A stretch of 13,580 nt of DNA, taken from Willaertia magna. Taxonomy: Eukaryota > Heterolobosea > Eutetramitea > Acrasida > Naegleriidae. Made by a program: the position numbers and the translations under genes. The notes under the pieces are model-generated. The model searched no databases. It saw nothing but the letters and a program-made list of their open reading frames with translations, and was not told the origin of the DNA. Below are positions 1 through 9,958 of this stretch, piece after piece. Position 1 is the stretch's first letter. Each line of letters opens with the position of its first letter. The stretch is taken from contig CADWAF010000548.1 of assembly GCA_902984215.1 (NCBI GenBank), forward strand, positions 1-13,580, given 5' to 3'.

Positions 1-153
1 AATGAAAATATTAAGAAATTGAATAAACCTCGTAGAAAGTGTTATCAAGTTTATTGCTATAGACCTTGTAAATATGGTTATAAAAGAGACAGATACGGTT
101 GTAAAACCTGTGCTTGTTTGTATGAAAAACATCATTTAAATAATGAATTTTAA
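1..153 (+). CDS. 3' end of a Cys-rich protein with an antistasin-like domain (partial)
   Basis: The first frame is open from base 1 to a TAA at 151-153, giving 50 residues whose start lies outside the window. It is Lys/Arg-rich with six cysteines spaced C-x4-C-x3-C-x10-C-x2-C-x-C, and a core reading CKYGYKRDRYGCKTCAC. This matches the antistasin-type pattern (C..C..C..G...D..GC..C.C), including the Gly and Asp. Antistasin-like modules are normally extracellular, disulphide-bonded and found in repeats, some of them as protease inhibitors. Inhibition cannot be claimed here, because neither the rest of the protein nor a signal peptide is visible. An unrelated secreted Cys-rich protein is the alternative. 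Confidence 0.6.
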   Translation, partial: NENIKKLNKPRRKCYQVYCYRPCKYGYKRDRYGCKTCACLYEKHHLNNEF

Positions 154-219: not shown

Positions 220-2119
220 ATGAGTGGATTTAATTTTCAACAATTTCATTTCGAAGGCTACAACCAAGGTTTTATTAATAATAATCCATATACAGATATT
301 CATGAAATGATTAGTGTAATGCAAAATAATTTACGTGTATTAATGAATGAAGTTGAAAGAAGAGAACTTAGAAGTAATTACAATAATGGTCGCAACTATT
401 ATACTAATAATATTCATCGCAATAAAAGAAATAGATTTTATTCAAATTATGAAACAACAACACCACAACATTCTGTTAATTCTTCACAAAACTTTGATCA
501 AAACTTTAATGATGACTACAATAATCAATTTAATACATCTAATGATGACTATAATAACTATAATGAGTATTATAATGATTATATGAATAGTAATTTTAAT
601 GAACATTGACGATGAAGAAGCAGTAATGCAAGAAGATGAATATAATATAAAAGAAATAGAAATCATTACAATAATTATTATGAAGATTATCAAGATAATT
701 ATTTTAGACAATCCAATTATAAAAAGAAAAAATATAATAATTATTACAATAACGATATTTATTACAATAATGATAACTATTACAATATTAATTACAATAA
801 TGATATAAACTATCAATTTAACTTTTCAAATGACCAAATTGAAGATAAATTAATAAATAATAAAAATAAATTAATTGGAAATATTATACCAAATAATTAT
901 AATAGAAAAAGTATTTATGTTAGAAATAATAGATATAATGGACAAGATAGATTACATGTAGAATGTTCTTTATTATGTAAAAGAATTAGAAGTTTTAGAT
1001 CTTTTGAAAAGAAAGTAGAAAATGCAGCAGTAGAAAAAACTACGAATGAAAAAACACGTAATGCTTTGTATAATCAAATAATTGATAAATTAGATTTGGA
1101 AAGAAATGAAAGAGATTTATTTGCAGATAGAATGGTTGATCCTTATGAAGCTTATCAAGCAGGCTTTAGGTTTGTTATTTTATTTATTTAGTTCTTTGTA
1201 AACTATTAATTTTGTAATAATGATATGTAAAATAAGAACTTGGAGACCTAAAAAGATCTTTCAATTTGACGGTTATACATTAGAAGGACAATACGATGCA
1301 AGAGATTTAGATTTTTATGATGTTCAAGGATTAGCAGGTTTACAACTTGTTGAAAAGAATGACAAAGTAATGTTCTTTTCACAAAATGTATTAGGTCTCT
1401 TTATTCCTATTAAGAATGTAGATAGTGAGATAGTTGGCGCTCAATTACTTAAACCAAATAATGATAGTAATCCACAGTACTTGATATTAAGCTCAAAACG
1501 TAGTCATGGTGTGACAATTCACAACTGTCACCAAGAAATTCCTCTTGCTTTTTGGGAATGTAATAAACCTGCAGTTACTGATGCATTATTTGTAGTAGAA
1601 GGAATTTTAAAATCATATATTACTAGTCTACGTACAAAATCTCATTGCTTAGGAGGGACTTGTAGTGACTTTTTAGCGAGTGAAACAACTTTACATTATT
1701 ATTTACAAGAATTTAAAAAGAAATATCCATATGTTGATAAAGCTTTTATTTGTCCAGATGCTGGAATGTTAACAAATGAAATGGTAACAGCAAATTATAT
1801 TGAATTAAGTATTGTATTGGAACATTATTTTACAGAAGTTTACTTTTTATGGTGGGGACAACTTGAGAGAAAAGATGGAAATATTGATGAATTAGATGAT
1901 TATCAATTATTTAATTGGTGCTATTTAACAAGGGAAGAATATGTTTGTAAACATAATAAGGAAATGATTCAGTATTCAAAGTTTTTAAAGTTTTATAGAG
2001 ATGAATTAAAGAGAAAAAGAATGTATAGTACTATTTTACAAAGGTGTTATAGGTCTTTGGTTTATAATGAAAATAATGTTGGTTATGTTAATTATGAAAA
2101 TGAAAATGCTGATTATTGA
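220..2119 (+). CDS. DUF3854/TOPRIM-like (primase-associated) protein with Asn/Tyr-rich N-terminus; spliced or frame-broken
   Basis: The ATG at 220 follows an A-rich leader. Residues up to base 606 are Asn/Tyr-rich and probably disordered. The same frame reopens at 646 and runs to 1169. An inferred intron (1170-1236) then joins it to the frame ending in TGA at 2117-2119. From about 1060 the protein follows the DUF3854 plan: a helical segment around DKLDLERNERDLFADRM, then FRTW, a region with GLFIPIKNVDSEIVGAQ and QYLILSS, then a TOPRIM-like core. The core has LFVVEGILKS (acidic residue at 1598-1600), FICPDAGMLTN (Asp at 1757-1759) and GNIDELDDY. TOPRIM folds use an early Glu and a DxD pair; here the second Asp of DxD appears as Gly, so catalysis is uncertain. 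Relatives sit in plasmid/phage replication modules beside helicases, but no helicase is present here. Transfer from a plasmid or virus is inferred. The frame problem near 567-659 may mean an intron or a pseudogene. Confidence 0.6.
567..659 (+). other. Frame discontinuity: possible weak intron or paired indels
   Basis: The frame from 220 meets TGA at 607-609 and further stops to 645, yet the same frame is open again from 646. Between them, about 599-645 is open in the next frame and coding-like (DDEEAVMQEDEYN). Two readings fit. One is a multiple-of-three intron from GTATTA at 567 to an AG at 652-653 or 658-659. The other is a pair of compensating indels. The donor is weak compared with the GTAAGT donors elsewhere in this window, and the interior looks coding, so I slightly favour indels. 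Confidence 0.45.
742..804 (+). repeat. 18-nt periodic repeat encoding Tyr/Asn-rich units
   Basis: Two 18-nt units (742-759 and 760-777) encode YYNNDI and YYNNDN, followed by a degenerate continuation encoding YYNINYNND. It lies in the low-complexity N-terminal half of the DUF3854-like gene. The 3n unit length keeps the frame. Confidence 0.6.
1170..1236 (+). other. Inferred intron in the DUF3854-like gene (donor GTTTGT)
   Basis: This 67-nt AT-rich segment contains an in-frame TAG at 1189-1191 and starts GTTTGT and ends AATAAG. Removing it fuses the upstream frame to the downstream frame through a split AGA codon, giving QAGF-R-TWRPKK, which continues the conserved domain smoothly. The size matches the other introns here, but the donor departs from GTAAGT. 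Confidence 0.6.
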
Positions 2120-2720: not shown

Positions 2721-3104
2721 ATGACAAATATTTATGTTCAAAAAGGATTAAAATTGTTCATTAATTATTGTTTTCCAGAATTTCTTATTGAATCAACAAT
2801 TTTTCAATTCTTCTTTTCTTTCTTATTCTTTTTAATTATTTTCATGATTACAAATCATATTGAAAATTTACATCCTGCTTTAATAAGACTAGGTCGTATT
2901 GATTTTAAAATTAAATTTGATTACTCAACTAAAGATCAAATTAAACAAATAATGAGTAGGTTCTTTAAGGATAAAATTTTAGGAAATAAGATTAATGAAT
3001 TAATTCCAAAAAAGAAATTAATAATTATTGAATTACAAACTTATTTAATGAGATATATTTATGATTTAAAAGATTCTACTAATCATTTAAAAATTAATAA
3101 ATAA
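2721..3104 (+). pseudogene. BCS1-like AAA+ ATPase, C-terminal fragment
   Basis: From about 2840 the frame reads IIFMITNHIENLHPALIRLG and then RIDFKIKF. This is the BCS1-family sensor/arginine-finger region (family form FMTTNHxxxLDPALIRPGRxD), followed by the C-terminal lid (ELQTYLMRY). BCS1 is a mitochondrial inner-membrane AAA+ ATPase that translocates the Rieske protein; many eukaryotes also have BCS1-like paralogues. No Walker A or Walker B motif is found in the upstream 700 bp, and the part just before the motif is a Phe-rich hydrophobic run in place of the usual ALDG-type segment. Asp to His and Pro to Leu changes inside the signature suggest relaxed selection. I call it a truncated relic. 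A distant 5' exon is possible but unsupported. Confidence 0.65.
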
Positions 3105-4304
3105 AACTACAGTATAAGTAACTATTTGGTTATTTATATTTTATATATTTTAAATTAAAAAGAAAATAAATTAATTAAAAAACAATCTAAATAATTATAT
3201 TTTGTATCTTTATATTTTTACTGAATTCTCTATTTTTTTATAAAATAATTTAATTTGAATAATTTAATTTAAATAATTTATAAGCTAATTTTTAAAAAAC
3301 AAAGATTATGTACTTACTTTATATAAAATAATTATATATTTCTTCATTAATTTTCACATAATTTAACAAAATTACAAATTATTTCAATAATAAATTTTAA
3401 TAAAAAACTTACAAATTAAATAAATTATATAAAAATTTTCATAAAATATTATTTTACTTTATTTTTAATTTTTCAATTAATATAAATTCATATATATCAA
3501 TATATCTTAATATAATAGAAAAATTTTTTTTTTAATATATAAAAAATAATTTTTTTTATAAACTTTTCCCAAATAAAAAATATTCTCTCTCAAATCTATA
3601 TTTAAAATCTTTAAAAATACAGCCATTTTTTAAAGAAAAAACTAAAAAAAAAATATTAAAAAAGCAAATATATTAAATATTATTTTAATAATACAAAATA
3701 TATTTATTGAACAATTTCTTTATTATAAAATTGTTAAATAAAACTAAAGTTTTAATGTTATTCTTTTTATTTTAACTAAAAGCCAAAAAAAATTTTTAAT
3801 AAAAAAATTTTTAATTATAAAATAAATAAACAACAAGAATTATTATATAATATAGTCTAAAATTTTACATCAAATTTGTAAAATATAATAATATTAATAT
3901 TATTTATAGTAACCTAAGAGTTTTTATAAGTTAATTTTTTATTGAAAAGGCTAATAAAACTATAAAATTAATTCTAAAAACTAAAATATTTAAAAGTATT
4001 ATAATTGATTAATATAAATAACTTTAATAGTTTATTATTTTTGTTATTAATTATAAAATTATTTTTATATTCAAAAGTCAATACTTTAGAAAGAAAGGGA
4101 GAAAATGTTTTGTTTATTTATTGAATTTCATAATTTTGACTAATTTTGTCAATTGTTTGTTATGATTTCATTTTTTTATAAAAACTTTAAACTTTAAACT
4201 TTATTTAGTTATAAAAAATTTTAATTTATTATCTAGTTCCCTTTAAGAATATTATAATTTCTTAAAATTTTATAGCACTTTGTTGCAAGTAAAGTGAAAG
4301 TAAT
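3105..4304. other. Extremely AT-rich DNA, no gene seen
   Basis: There are long runs of A and T with almost no G or C, and no open frame of note on either strand. Part may be the 3' untranslated region of the minus-strand retroelement at 4305-7051, whose coding frame ends at 4305. No clear poly(A) tail, target-site duplication or tRNA could be recognised. Confidence 0.5.
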
Positions 4305-4496
4305 TTAGATTTCTATGACACATTTTTTAATTTTTTTGTTCAAGTAAAAGAATTTGTCTTTTTTTAGAATTATTTTCTTGTAATTTAGTTTTAATTTGTT
4401 GTAAAATATAGCATTTTTATTAATTGTAATACCACTGTTGAGTTCTGTGAGCTTAAGAATATTATTATTTGTCTAGTTTCTTTTTGTGGTTGTTTT

Positions 4497-4556
4497 AGGG
4501 CATTTTATTATTAAATACAGTAAGTTTATTTTCTTATTACATAAATTGCAGATATG
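4497..4556 (-). pseudogene. C-terminal zinc knuckle of the LINE relic
   Basis: The minus strand reads HICNLCNKKINLLYLIIKCP, matching the LINE C-terminal C-x2-C-x7-H-x4-C knuckle except that the His position is Tyr (TAT instead of CAT). The ORF tail runs another 60-odd codons to the TAA at 4305-4307, with one TAG on the way. Confidence 0.65.
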
Positions 4557-4959
4557 AGATTGTTTATAATTGATTATAGTATAGCAACAAACATTAATAT
4601 TACAGAATAGTCGAATTTTGGTTTTTGATGATAGATTCTGTTTAATAAATTTGTAAGTTTATATATAGCATATATTACTGTTATAGAATAGATTATTATA
4701 TGTTTTTCTATTCTAATCTTGGTTATACGTGAGATTGATGTTGTATATGTTAAAGTCACTTATATGTTATTGTATATTAAATACTATTATGCTTTGTTAT
4801 TTGTCATTAATAGTTGTTTATGTTGGAAAAGTTATCTAATATTGAAAATGTTAACAAATTAACTTATATTCTTAGTCTATTTATCTATTAGGTTGTTTTT
4901 AATGTTATTGTTGTGAGTTTTTACTTTAGTGATATTTAATTTTATGTTGTTTTGTCAAT

Positions 4960-5290
4960 TATTTTTTATAATTCTTTTTTAAAGCATAGAAAATCATCTT
5001 AGTAATTATCATTTTTGATGAGTTTAAGTAAAATTTTATTGTCTGTGTAAATTGTAATAGCATTATCTTTTAGAAATAGTTTAATACTATGTAAAATAAC
5101 ACATTTTGATCAGTTTATATATATAAATAATGTCTTAGAAGTTTTTATAAATGTCAAAATTTCTTATTTTCTTATTATTTTTTGCTTTAATTAAACTATT
5201 ACTTGTTAATAATATCATGAGTCTGAAATTACTATAGTATTTGTTTATTATAATTTTAACAATAAAAGTTTCCATTTATGTGTTAATTTT
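4960..5290 (-). pseudogene. RNase H-like segment of the LINE relic
   Basis: On the minus strand from 5103, the frame reads CVILHSIKLFLKDNAITIYT followed by DNKILLKLIKN. This resembles the RNase H helix (AExxAIxxAL) and the strand carrying a catalytic Asp (IxIYTDS). Upstream material down from 5290 is open but too decayed to assign. Its position between the RT and the zinc knuckle is where RNase H sits in several LINE groups. The call rests on a short stretch. Confidence 0.5.
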
Positions 5291-5660
5291 TCTAATGTCT
5301 AATCTGCCTTCTTTAATATTTTGATAAATGAAACTAATTAGTGTATTAAAAGCAATTAAAATCTTTTTTTTTAATTCAATACATAAGTAGTGTCAATGTC
5401 TTCACAATCTTTTTCTTTGACAACATTCTTTTTGCATAAATGTATATAACTAGATAAATATTTAATTTGAACCAAGTTTTTATAGTTATTAATATCGACT
5501 AATTGTTGATGTATAAATTTGATACTTTTTTTAATTTTGTTCTTTCTTTTTTCAATGTTTTTTTTTAGTAGTTTGTTTTTAAAAAAATAATTACTTAGTA
5601 TATATTCATTATCTATAATAAGTATTTCTATATTTTTCGTTATTAGTTTTACAATATTGT

Positions 5661-6540
5661 TTTTTTAGTTAATATTATTGCTTTAGATTTTACTGAGTTA
5701 ATACTAAACTTAATTTTTTTCATTTATTTAAAAAGATTATCTATTCTTCTATTAGTTTTCCTAAAATTTATGCCAATTAAATATAAGTCGTTAGTAAAAT
5801 TGAGTAATCTCATATAATTTAAGTTAGTTTTACATGAATCTTTTGGTATTTTCTATTTTTTTATGGTTTTATCTATAATGATTTAAGTGATACAATTAAA
5901 AATAATATATGCCAGTAGACATTTTTATGGAATGTCTTTTATTTTTATAATGTTTCCTCTGAGTTGATTATTGATTTCAAGTTTAAGTGAGTGATCTTTA
6001 TAAGTTTTTATGATAAACTTAATAAAAATTTGTAAAATTTATAATGGATTAAGCTTTTATATATTAATTCAAAATCAACATAATCGTATACTCCTTTAAT
6101 ATCTAGATTAATTATTGAGATATTATTTTAGTTTAATTTAATTAAACTTTTTAGTAAATAAACTTGATTTATTGCTTTTATATGTAGTATGAATGCTTGT
6201 TGTCTAACATTTAGTTGAGTTTTTGCCCAATTTTTTAATTTATAGGCAATGATGTTAAATAATAATCTATATTTTAGATTCATGATTGCTATAGGTTTAA
6301 AGTCTTTAAGAAAATTAATACTATCTTTTTTTAAGATGAATTTAACACATTTTTGTTTAAAACTATCATTAATATATCCTTCTTTGACTTAATTATTGAA
6401 GTATTTAATAAGTTTTTTAAGTATTTCGTTATTAAATTTTCTAAATAGTTCAAGTAGTATTTAATTTAATTCCATAGATTTAGATTTCATTTTTTTTAAA
6501 CTATCTTTGATATCTTTTACTGTTATTACATTTTATAATG
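5661..6540 (-). pseudogene. Reverse transcriptase domain of the LINE relic
   Basis: The frame with codons beginning at positions such as 6535 gives FLKDFKPIAIMNLKYRLLF (the RPIsLxNxxYK region), then RQQAFILHIKAINQVYLL, then INLDIKGVYDYVD (motif A, Asp kept). A frame change near 6045 moves to the frame holding QLRGNIIKIKDIP-stop-KC, where the stop sits at the Gln of the PQG motif. That frame continues with AYIIFN (the LFN motif), LLNFTNDLYLIG (motif C, YADD changed to FTND) and INSVKSKAIILTKK. Loss of the first Asp of the DD pair would abolish activity. In-frame stops on the minus strand begin at 6535, 6463, 6391, 6130 (first frame) and 6041, 5927, 5885, 5855, 5726 (second frame); one more precedes the domain at 6760. 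Confidence 0.85.
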
Positions 6541-6982
6541 GACTTTCACTAATGGTTGTTTGGAACATCTTAAGTTTAATATTTGAGATATTATTTTTTG
6601 CAAATTTTTTTGTAAAGAAATTGATAATTAAGAGATCATTAATATTTTCTTTTAATATGTTCCAATTTATATTTTTACTGTTAAATATATTATCATATTT
6701 ATATAACATGTTTTTGGTATTTTTGTTATAATTGAAGAAGAAATTTTTTTTTCTTTCTTAGGTTATTTTTTTAGTGATTTCTTTAAGTTTAATGTTGAAG
6801 GATTTAAGTTTGTGGATTAATTGGGAATTATTATTTGTTTGTCTAATTCTTTCTTTAATGGGGTGTATTTTGTTTTTCAAGTTTGAGTATTCTTTGTTTT
6901 TCCTCATATTATTTCTTGTAAACAGGTATTGATGTTTACTTTTTTCTTTAAGGTAAGAGCTAATATTGTTTAAGAAGGGTAA

Positions 6983-7036
6983 AATTTCTTTGTTGCTAGT
7001 AATTTCTTTGTTGCTAGTAATTTCTTTGTTGCTATT
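6983..7036. repeat. 18-bp tandem repeat, three copies
   Basis: The unit AATTTCTTTGTTGCTAGT occurs at 6983-7000 and 7001-7018. A third copy at 7019-7036 differs by one base (GCTATT for GCTAGT). On the minus strand the units encode S/T-S-N-K-E-I in the LINE frame. The array lies at the 5' edge of the LINE relic, 28 bp before the HPS1 start codon. Confidence 0.9.
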
Positions 7037-7064
7037 ATTAAATTTTTCTTTTTAGTTATAAAAA

Positions 7065-9083
7065 ATGATAGCATCAAATTTCATCACCAACAACACAAAT
7101 GGAGATACTGACAACAAGAACACGAATATAATAAAAAAGCATAATACTAACAATAATCCAATACATCATCAACATTCATCATCCAATACTACTCATCCAA
7201 CAACAAATGAAGATGATTTCTACTATAAAACAGAAAAATACTTTATGGTTTCACAAGGTTCTGCCGAAATCTTTTCCGATCACCCAGCTGCCGGTCTTAA
7301 TATTCCAGTATTAAGTACATCACAAGAATCTTTAAAAGAACTATGTGGTACAAACTGTAGACAAATACATACATTAGGAAATGATAAAATCTTATTAACC
7401 CATTCTTTCGGTAATTTACATTATTGTATCATTTACATGCGAGAGAAGATGAAAAAGTTACATTTTCATCATCATCACAACCATAACAATAATAATCAAC
7501 AATATTTACAACAAGAAGAAATAATAATGATTGAAGAAGAACCTAGAGAAACAACAGCTTCACTTTTTAGACAATTATGTTTAATTCATGATCTTACTTG
7601 TTTTAGTATTAGAATTCAAGTAAGTTCAAATTTTAATAGAGGAATAAATCAAAATGAAGCAAAAAGAGTTTTAAAACCAGTTGTTGAAACTTTAAAACGT
7701 TTATATAAAACACAACAATCTATTTTAGTACAAGGTATAGAATATGTTGATTTAAATTATCACAATAGACAAATTATAATTGATGCTTTAAAAGATGGTA
7801 TTGAACCTTATCCTTTCTTATTACATGCAGTTCTATTAGTTGGTACTAAATTAGCTGCTGTTTACTCTAGAAAGAAAACTTGGGTTTTATTACCGAGAGA
7901 TATTCTTTGTTTAATGATTTATTCACAAAGTACTTTTTTTTATAAAACTAAATCTACGACTGATGGCGGTAATAATAATAACAGTAATGTGAAAAAGAAG
8001 AAGAATCATGTGAATAGTAATACCAGTGGTGGTAGTGGTAATAATAATGTGAATTCTTATGGAGAAGGTGAGTATTCACCATCGTTGGGGATGATGGGTA
8101 GTAGTGATCAATTTATAGATCATCAAATGATGAATAAATGTTCTACAAGTTCATCAGATGATAATATTTCAGACACTGATACTACTAAAAAAGAAGAAGA
8201 AGAAAATATTGAATCTAAATTTGATTATTTATTCTTTCATGCAACTGAAAATCATGGAAATTTTAATCAAAAATTATTTAAGTGTGGTGTTTATTTTGAA
8301 TATGATAAAGAGCAAGATATGACTTTAATGTTAATTTGTGACCCAACTATTGTAAATATTGAACAATTAGTGAAAACTAATACAACTAATACAATTGGAA
8401 CTAGTCTTACTGTTGGTGGAGGTGGCACTGGCCTTAGCGTTGGAAATAGTTTAATGGAAAGTCACTCATTGGGTAATCACAATAATATTACAACAACTGG
8501 AACAAGTTTTGATGAGACAGAAGGAGATATTGAGGAAGAAGAAGAAGATAAAGAAACTGTTAGAGATCAATTACAAGAAGCTGCCATTCAAGTAAATGAA
8601 AAAATCTCTAGTTTTAAAAAGTTTTCTTACCTTAAAGTAAAAGCTGATTCTCACATGACAATGTTAAATTATTTACATTATTGTCCTGGTTTAATTCATT
8701 TCATATTAGTTGATAGAATTTACGATAGAGTTTACGCTCCAAGAATTGTCTCACTTCACACAAATAATATTTCAGCAAAAGCAGAAGAAGAACAGATTTC
8801 AATTTTAAAGAAAAAAGTTTGGGAAATGTGTTATGTATTACAACAGTATAGAGATGAAGGTTATACTGAAATTGGTGTTTGTGGTGATGGTGTACAATAT
8901 TGGTTTAAAGAATGGTTTGAAGATGAAAATCAATTGGAATTGAAAATGACAAGAAATAATTTAAATCATGCAAAAGCTCATTATGAATTGTATACAATGT
9001 ATTTACCTTTTGTTTCTACACAAGCAATTGGACATCATAACAAATTATTAATTAAATTATTATTGGATCGTCCTATTAATTAA
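7065..9083 (+). CDS. HPS1: HPS1 homologue, BLOC-3 subunit (Rab32/38 exchange factor)
   Basis: This single-exon frame gives 672 residues, close to the roughly 700 of animal HPS1. HPS1 pairs with HPS4 as BLOC-3, the exchange factor for Rab32/Rab38 on lysosome-related organelles; it belongs to the MON1/CCZ1/Fuzzy longin-domain group. Three longin-like regions are visible. The first begins at residues 57-70 (EKYFMVSQGSAEIF). The second contains residues 252-269 (LLHAVLLVGTKLAAVYSR), which align with the corresponding HPS1 strand-helix. The third has NYLHYCPGLIHFILVDR from 535 and FKEWFEDENQLELKM, ending with YELYTMYLP. These distinguish HPS1 from MON1 and Fuzzy. A disordered N-terminal 50 residues, a His/Asn run near 130-150 and Asn/Ser/Gly linkers at about 300-385 and 438-510 are inserts. 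The ATG follows ATAAAAA. The gene looks intact beside a dead retroelement, which must leave its promoter in or beyond that relic. Confidence 0.82.
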   Translation: MIASNFITNNTNGDTDNKNTNIIKKHNTNNNPIHHQHSSSNTTHPTTNEDDFYYKTEKYFMVSQGSAEIFSDHPAAGLNIPVLSTSQESLKELCGTNCRQIHTLGNDKILLTHSFGNLHYCIIYMREKMKKLHFHHHHNHNNNNQQYLQQEEIIMIEEEPRETTASLFRQLCLIHDLTCFSIRIQVSSNFNRGINQNEAKRVLKPVVETLKRLYKTQQSILVQGIEYVDLNYHNRQIIIDALKDGIEPYPFLLHAVLLVGTKLAAVYSRKKTWVLLPRDILCLMIYSQSTFFYKTKSTTDGGNNNNSNVKKKKNHVNSNTSGGSGNNNVNSYGEGEYSPSLGMMGSSDQFIDHQMMNKCSTSSSDDNISDTDTTKKEEEENIESKFDYLFFHATENHGNFNQKLFKCGVYFEYDKEQDMTLMLICDPTIVNIEQLVKTNTTNTIGTSLTVGGGGTGLSVGNSLMESHSLGNHNNITTTGTSFDETEGDIEEEEEDKETVRDQLQEAAIQVNEKISSFKKFSYLKVKADSHMTMLNYLHYCPGLIHFILVDRIYDRVYAPRIVSLHTNNISAKAEEEQISILKKKVWEMCYVLQQYRDEGYTEIGVCGDGVQYWFKEWFEDENQLELKMTRNNLNHAKAHYELYTMYLPFVSTQAIGHHNKLLIKLLLDRPIN

Positions 9084-9448: not shown

Positions 9449-9958
9449 ATGATTGACAAACTAGTAAAGAGCGCAAGTAAGGGATTAAATCCATACAGAA
9501 ATCGTTTCTTTGGTGGTTTCCCATCTGTATTCTTTAATGATCCCTTTTTAAAGAATGCATTTAAGGATTTTGATGAACATTTTGGCGGTCAAATGTCAAA
9601 ATATGATCAACCAGCTGTAGATGTCAAAGAAACAGAAAACACATTCGAATTAGTAGCTGATGTTCCAGGATTTAAAAAAGATGCAATTAAAGTTGATTTA
9701 GATGAAGATAATAGATTATTAACATTAAAGGGAGAATTAAAATCAGAAAAAGAAGAAAAAGATAAAGAAGGAAAATATCATCTTCAAGAAAGAAGTTATT
9801 CAAGTTTCCAAAGAAGTTTTACTCTTCCAGATAATGTTAAATTAGATGATCTTAAAGCACAATTAAAAGATGGTCAATTGAAGATTGTTTTGGAAAAAAT
9901 TAAACAAGAGAAACAAGAAAAACCAAAAAGTAAATCAATTGATATTACTGAACATTGA
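9449..9958 (+). CDS. Small heat-shock protein (Hsp20/alpha-crystallin family)
   Basis: A 169-residue single-exon frame, typical for the family. It is an ATP-independent holdase that binds unfolding proteins and forms oligomers, usually in the cytosol. Residues 1-50 are the variable N-terminal arm, rich in Phe and Gly. The alpha-crystallin domain spans about 53-153, with FELVADVPGFKKDAIKVDL at 66-84, ERSYSSFQRSFTLP at 114-127 and the signature AQLKDGQLKIVLEK at 137-150 (family form AxxxxGvLxIxxxK). The C-terminal extension is Lys-rich and carries an I-x-I anchor (IDI) shortly before the end. The arrangement resembles bacterial and plant class-type Hsp20. No targeting peptide is evident. The ATG at 9449 is the first in frame after the leader. 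Stress induction is expected from the family but not shown by a clear heat-shock element. Confidence 0.95.
   Translation: MIDKLVKSASKGLNPYRNRFFGGFPSVFFNDPFLKNAFKDFDEHFGGQMSKYDQPAVDVKETENTFELVADVPGFKKDAIKVDLDEDNRLLTLKGELKSEKEEKDKEGKYHLQERSYSSFQRSFTLPDNVKLDDLKAQLKDGQLKIVLEKIKQEKQEKPKSKSIDITEH

Follow-up and report, generated by a model that had tools for sequence, protein, structure and literature searches.

Introduction

The closest described systems to the gene considered here are the replication proteins CyRepA1 and CyRepX1 of cyanobacteria. CyRepA1 is reported to comprise primase and helicase domains and to be indispensable to pSYSA as a replicon of its own (PMC9978351), and the N-terminal domain of CyRepA proteins has been named DUF3854 and described as related to Toprim (PMC10079941). 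CyRepX1 is reported to support autonomous replication, and by the same account SMART and Pfam gave no specific domain for it (PMC10899382). We analyzed a related gene of the amoeba Willaertia magna, located at positions 220 to 2119 of a 13,580-nucleotide stretch (hereafter the window) that represents contig CADWAF010000548.1, or C169, of a W. magna assembly of 19.2 Mb in 894 contigs. This assembly is probably partial, since the published genome has 36.5 Mb, with 24.8% GC (PMC6892926). We consider it fairly probable that a horizontally transferred piece of a plasmid protein, its primase-like N-terminal half, gave rise to this nuclear gene, which was ameliorated and duplicated in its host and likely encodes an enzyme of the DnaG fold. 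Its origin, anatomy and fold are supported by computed evidence; the enzyme activity, substrate and pathway we infer.

Results

Structure of the gene

The gene lies on the plus strand, with its ATG at 220 and its stop codon at 2117-2119, and comprises two exons separated by a predicted spliceosomal-type intron of 67 nucleotides (1170-1236) with GT...AG ends. Exon 1 (220..1169) joins an open reading frame (ORF) at 220-609 to a frame at 646-1167, in the same order as in the paralogue on contig C681 and in the NCBI proteins P0002, P0005 and P0008. It encodes an Asn/Tyr-rich N-terminus, a block at about 892-993 (GNIIP...KSIYV...RLHVECSLLCKR) that ends in RLHVECSLLCKR and is common to other copies, and a helical lead-in. 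Exon 2 (1237..2119) encodes a DnaG-fold primase core with TOPRIM, followed by a C-terminal helical region. The GFR-TW junction created by the intron is read through in four NCBI proteins of W. magna (P0002, P0004, P0005 and P0008), and the C681 paralogue is interrupted at the same place and in the same phase by an intron with GT...AG ends, about 49 nucleotides long. P0001 is a single ORF without an intron at this position. The NCBI orthologue P0002 (ABK040_012659, 587 residues) is 97% identical to the window gene, and the orthologue is also present in another W. magna entry, on a contig of 14,726 bases.

Within exon 1, stops interrupt the reading frame from 607 to about 650, and the same frame reopens behind them; the neighboring frame of this stretch codes for an acidic peptide resembling that of the other copies. 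The NCBI model P0002 omits the stretch, so the interruption is probably present in that assembly too. It is either a lesion or an odd intron. An original prediction, made from the letters of the window alone, had placed the start of the gene at 1060; the C681 paralogue and P0002 move it to the ATG at 220, while the Asn/Tyr-rich N-terminus and the intron that it proposed are both borne out. The peptides that it quoted fall in one open frame (1220-2119, plus strand), all of them within exon 2.

Fold and active site

Structure comparison, which the original prediction had proposed for TOPRIM folds, assigned the domain to the RNA polymerase domain fold of DnaG-type primases. Twinkle, T7 gp4 and topoisomerases were among the structural matches, and 38 predicted viral structures matched the fold at E≤0.001, with phage primases at the top. 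A profile search of the PDB returned three DnaG entries with E-values of 1.8-1.9, which alone are not significant. A PDB sequence match to actin-fragmin kinase (E 0.0049) was dropped, as the fold searches gave it no support.

The full TOPRIM acidic set of DnaG-type primases consists of a Glu, a DxD motif and a third motif. In an alignment of 38 rows of the family (37 rows with a letter at the third motif), the first two acidic residues are kept and the set is incomplete at the second Asp of DxD. The Glu of EGILKS (1598..1600) is Glu in 35 of the 38 rows and Asp in 3. At the DxD place, occupied by the Asp-Ala-Gly of PDAG (1757..1765), the Asp is found in 38/38 rows and is followed by Gly in 37, with Ala in the remaining one. 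The original prediction had taken the replacement of the second Asp to indicate altered or lost catalysis; Gly is the family norm at this place, so the change specific to the window gene sits not in DxD but in the third acidic motif, NIDEL (1880..1894). Here codon 1880-1882 is Asn, peculiar to the window gene: at the first position of DIDE, 34 of the 37 rows have Asp, one has Gly and two have Asn, these two being the window gene and its NCBI orthologue, that is, one gene. The second Asp of DIDE is kept in 37/37 rows, and the Lys of EGxLK, the Asn of PDAGxxxN and the Gln of WWGQ in 38/38 each. The N-terminal zinc ribbon of the DnaG type (PF01807) was detected in a single one of the 38 alignment members, the metagenomic protein P0003.

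Relationship with CyRepA1/CyRepX proteins

Exon 2 matched 63 of 72,556 plasmid records in a tblastn search at E≤0.01 (best E 7e-13). Among the matches listed (60 of the 63 records) all are cyanobacterial, several being annotated as "plasmid replication protein, CyRepA1 family"; a 432-residue paralogue matched 18 records, again all cyanobacterial. Aligned by hhalign, whose E-values apply to single comparisons, the amoeba proteins and their cyanobacterial relatives gave a probability of 100% (E 1.8e-43). In five of these relatives (L013-L017, 1019-1257 residues), the match to the amoeba domain lies in the N-terminal part. The CyRepA1 model NF042913 of NCBIfam matches two of the five, at residues 415-1003 and 417-1017, behind the primase-like domain; the model covers this rear region and has no match in exon 2, P0001, P0002, P0004 or P0005. 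No Pfam helicase domain was detected in the five relatives at E≤0.01, and the identification of their rear part as a helicase relies on NF042913 in two of five and on the published papers. The W. magna domain thus belongs with the N-terminal primase-like domain of CyRepA1/CyRepX-type Rep proteins, and the amoeba proteins stop behind it, without a fused C-terminal helicase region.

The original prediction had noted the absence of a partner helicase and had suggested inspecting other copies for one nearby. The copies exist, and a search of the incomplete assembly, exon by exon, with a whole CyRepA1-type protein (L014) found only primase residues (155-356, 187-358 and 187-313, on C130, C169 and C681) and no helicase half.

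The same domain is present on pSYSX, where residues 99-399 of the ORF at 27957-31322 (2386-5751 of L072) match a profile built from 42 domains with 224 bits. The ORF is probably Slr6031, i.e. CyRepX1, since it lies beside a duplicated region reported to end at 27,731 (PMC10899382).

The label DUF3854 fits more loosely. A TOPRIM/primase-type domain of the bacterial-plasmid kind is present as originally proposed, but membership in the Pfam family of that name (PF12965) was rejected for lack of a direct profile match. PF12965 did not match exon 2 at E≤1, or the five cyanobacterial relatives at E≤0.01; it had no match in the W. magna assembly, as in control genomes, and it detected 2 of the 38 family members weakly (best E 0.027). 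Conversely, our family profile matched none of ten cyanobacterial PF12965 proteins, for which hhalign gave 4% with the amoeba proteins and 81% (E 1.2e-5) with the cyanobacterial relatives. The motifs also differ, being EGxKKA, DxD/DxE and KGVDD in PF12965 and EGxLK, DAG and DIDE in the present family. From the profile comparisons and the motifs, we conclude that the amoeba/CyRep family and PF12965 are distant branches of one superfamily.

Paralogues and selection

Searching the assembly with exon 2 revealed seven places on five contigs. This is a lower bound, since none of the seven seems to correspond to P0004 or P0008, two of the five W. magna proteins of the family at NCBI (the others being P0001, P0002 and P0005). 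The copies on C681 and C130 are 66% and 34% identical to the window exon 2, and the C130 ORF is 100% identical to the W. magna protein ABK040_010150 over 354 residues. P0001 and P0004 have open frames and keep every key residue, the frame of P0001 being open over 354 residues in both assemblies. Other copies are damaged. P0008 is missing most of the primase-like domain, and the C681 copy has a frame break in exon 1, a stretch that its NCBI model P0005 likewise omits. C226 and C411 each carry two convergent degenerate copies, in which the catalytic Glu is replaced by Asn or Asp and the Asp by Gln or His; these two contigs align over stretches of 3033 and 2807 columns, with identities of 91.5% and 93.3%.

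The DNA likeness of the window and C681 copies is limited to coding sequence. Nonsynonymous (Ka) and synonymous (Ks) divergence between them is 0.25 and 1.25 in exon 2 (176 codons), and the resulting Ka/Ks of about 0.2 shows purifying selection on this exon. In exon 1, Ka is 0.39 and Ks 0.92 (55 codons). Between the window and C130 copies (Ka 0.85, Ks 0.97, 268 codons) the divergence is too high to judge selection.

Two further observations concern these copies. After PDAG, the C681 copy (L018, 5515-5770) turns into unrelated sequence in the same frame while P0005 keeps the normal domain end, the result of either a misjoin or a rearrangement. The segments L020 (C226:1-9900) and L021 (C411:9000-18890) have about 6 kb in common at 91-93% identity, and 253 of their 290 substitutions are transitions, 160 with G/C in C226 and A/T in C411 and 93 the reverse. 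This bias looks like deamination or a process resembling repeat-induced point mutation on a duplicated segment, or like diverged haplotypes.

Origin of the gene

In an unrooted tree, a branch with 100/99 support separates a single clade of four amoeba proteins from all 38 other rows, consistent with a single acquisition followed by duplication. The branch of P0001 is long and the compositions of P0001 and P0004 are unusual. The tree left out three partial sequences (L058, L060 and L061), L013 (the same protein as L044) and P0008, which has lost most of the domain, and its cyanobacterial group took in the metagenomic proteins P0003, P0006 and P0007; alignment A6 left out the same three partial sequences, L051 (a near-copy of L048) and L014-L017. 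The rows nearest to the amoeba clade by path are a Calothrix/Nostocaceae group (L043, L047, L050 and L053-L055; joining support 93/88), four of which share the peptide DAGMLTN with the window. The approximately unbiased (AU) test does not reject an alternative that joins the amoeba proteins with L015, L016 and L059 (p-AU 0.095); it does reject their grouping with the plasmid sequences of the Calothrix group (p-AU 0.001).

Protein searches returned the five W. magna proteins as their sole matches from a named eukaryote, the others being the three metagenomic proteins; these searches rely on common five-residue words, which distant eukaryotic relatives could escape. A genome scan yielded 31 confirmed loci, all cyanobacterial, with patterns taken from L013, L014, L017, P0006 and P0007 only, that is, from cyanobacterial and metagenomic proteins, so the scan does not show absence elsewhere. 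The accessible text of the literature on these replication proteins and on transfer to protists yielded no report of the family in heteroloboseans.

A phage source was rejected, as a search of 50,697 phage records with exon 2 gave no match at E≤10, and a giant-virus one likewise, the Willaertia alignment giving 16 pattern matches in IMG/VR with no relative among them. The PHROGs search with exon 2 gave one weak match (E 0.18). Against a simple dismissal of a viral source, the cyanobacterial alignment finds three IMG/VR loci, the fold is matched by the 38 predicted viral structures mentioned above, and the CyRep family does occur on phage-like elements too. One of the three loci (L029, 210-9312) encodes a CyRep-like protein of 1206 residues (phrog_4913, replication), and its contig also has phage tail and portal genes.

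The composition of the gene is that of its host, as originally proposed. G+C content at third codon positions (GC3) is 0.16 in exon 2, compared with 0.158 and 0.136 in two eukaryotic neighbors on the window contig, encoding a MON1-type longin protein (7065-9083) and an HSP20 protein (9449-9958). Five further ORFs of the host have values of 0.111-0.171, and six cyanobacterial relatives values of 0.29-0.52.

Other features of the window

Positions 1-150 (plus strand) cover the last part of a gene whose product has a Cys-rich domain of the antistasin type (PF02822; the match, with E 3e-6, passes the cut-off). An ORF at 2721-3104 (plus strand) has a Pfam AAA match below the cut-off (E 0.0039) and is probably a gene fragment; it resembles the C-terminal end of what we take to be a BCS1-type AAA ATPase. 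On the minus strand, a decayed reverse transcriptase of the long interspersed nuclear element (LINE) type occupies 4300-7064, just upstream of MON1, with an RVT_1 match at 6032-6337 (E 2.5e-5) that contains one internal stop and is below the family cut-off. Searches of the window for tRNA genes and Rfam families gave no match.

Discussion

We judge the gene to be a real and unusual horizontal acquisition; its anatomy and the fold of its product are well supported. We propose that the sequence transferred to the amoeba came from a plasmid replication protein of cyanobacterial type (the CyRepA1/CyRepX kind) and corresponds to its N-terminal, primase-like half, the helicase half being lost after a single acquisition or never transferred. 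The gene would have gained its N-terminal extension and intron, shifted its composition to that of the host and been duplicated, with selection keeping the intact-looking copies while others decay. Genes have reportedly moved from circular single-stranded DNA viruses to eukaryotes; to our knowledge, replication enzymes are rarely supplemented through plasmid transfer. The protein most likely remains a working DnaG-fold enzyme acting on nucleic acids. It would bind single-stranded DNA together with a metal-bound nucleotide, using three acidic residues (the EGxLK Glu, the PDAG Asp and the IDEL Asp), and would produce or process short primers when DNA is replicated or repaired. The intact paralogues likely function as primases or related TOPRIM enzymes. 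Such a function is doubtful for the window's own copy, which, with its broken exon 1 and the Asn in its third acidic motif, may be losing activity.

We regard it as a possibility, with the odds against it, that this stand-alone DnaG-fold primase, captured from a plasmid-type replicon of cyanobacteria, serves a heterolobosean amoeba as a functional enzyme encoded in the nucleus; it would then be the first branch of the CyRep proteins in a eukaryotic nuclear genome. Naegleria, which is related to Willaertia, has ribosomal DNA (rDNA) plasmids, and a working enzyme might prime DNA synthesis on an extrachromosomal circle like these.

A rather unlikely explanation is that the gene was captured from bacteria, duplicated and is now being lost without present function. 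The frame breaks of the window and C681 copies, the lost catalytic residues of those on C226 and C411, the reduced P0008 and the Asn at a conserved Asp would fit such decay; the open frames of P0001 (354 residues, in both assemblies) and P0004 with all key residues, and the Ka/Ks of about 0.2 in exon 2, speak for maintenance. The same selection bears on a second explanation, in which the gene is a remnant or passenger of an unrecognized eukaryotic mobile replicon spreading in Willaertia, its partners being elsewhere or lost. Several dispersed copies, some of them degenerate, would be expected from this, and RVT_1, with 80 matches on 58 of the 894 contigs overall, is found on four of the five contigs that bear a primase-like copy (C169, C681, C226 and C411, two matches being below the cut-off). 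The co-occurrence counts as three of four, because C226 and C411 represent one duplicated segment, and regional repeat richness may explain it; the relative position and strand of RVT_1 vary among the copies. No inverted or terminal repeats were found flanking the window gene, nor a helicase half in the assembly. We therefore regard a mobile replicon as unlikely. Of the two origins offered by the original prediction, a domesticated plasmid gene or the remnant of a mobile replicon, domestication fits better, because the window and C681 copies resemble each other in DNA only where they code for protein, no partner gene turned up in the incomplete assembly and exon 2 is under purifying selection.

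That the protein is an ordinary eukaryotic TOPRIM protein of the Twinkle or topoisomerase type, with a bacterial look by chance, is very improbable, even with Twinkle, T7 gp4 and topoisomerases among the structural matches. Bacterial contamination or an assembly artefact has next to no probability: the shortness of the window contig (13,580 bases) and the divergence of the C681 copy from the NCBI protein after PDAG could suggest it, but the intron, the host-like GC3, the host genes on the same contig and the presence of the gene on the 14,726-base contig of another W. magna entry all contradict it. If horizontal transfer of the primase-like half is indeed what happened, the gene would offer a clear example of an enzyme from a bacterial plasmid entering eukaryotic DNA metabolism, as its primase half only, multiplied and partly under selection.

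Several known systems resemble the amoeba gene in part. The RNA polymerase domain of DnaG (e.g. 5guj, from B. subtilis) shares 10-16% identity with the amoeba proteins, in which Gly occupies the position of the second DxD Asp and no DnaG-type zinc ribbon was found. PF12965 proteins resemble the CyRep family in having TOPRIM-like motifs before a helicase region, a kinship at the level of the superfamily. In ferns, Mankyua ORF531 and the MORFFO genes are likewise of replication type and of cyanobacterial appearance within a eukaryotic cell (PMC6220310), and MORFFO-like sequences are reported in fern nuclear genomes too (PMC13000998). These DUF3854-like ORFs belong to plants and are mostly organellar, and the likeness to the amoeba gene is one of description only. 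The CyRepA1/CyRepX proteins (NF042913; Slr6031 = CyRepX1) are the closest, sharing the primase-like domain along its entire length: helical lead-in, GxxxPI..., EGxLK, PDAGxxxN and WWGQ...DIDE. They are encoded on bacterial plasmids or chromosomes, comprise about 1000-1250 residues, the domain being followed by a helicase region (PMC10079941), and, in L013-L017, begin with an N-terminal Cys cluster, whereas the amoeba proteins are nuclear-encoded, comprise 354-587 residues without a helicase and carry an Asn/Tyr-rich extension. The comparison also works in the other direction, as it supplies a fold and a likely chemistry for the N-terminal part of the probable CyRepX1 on pSYSX.
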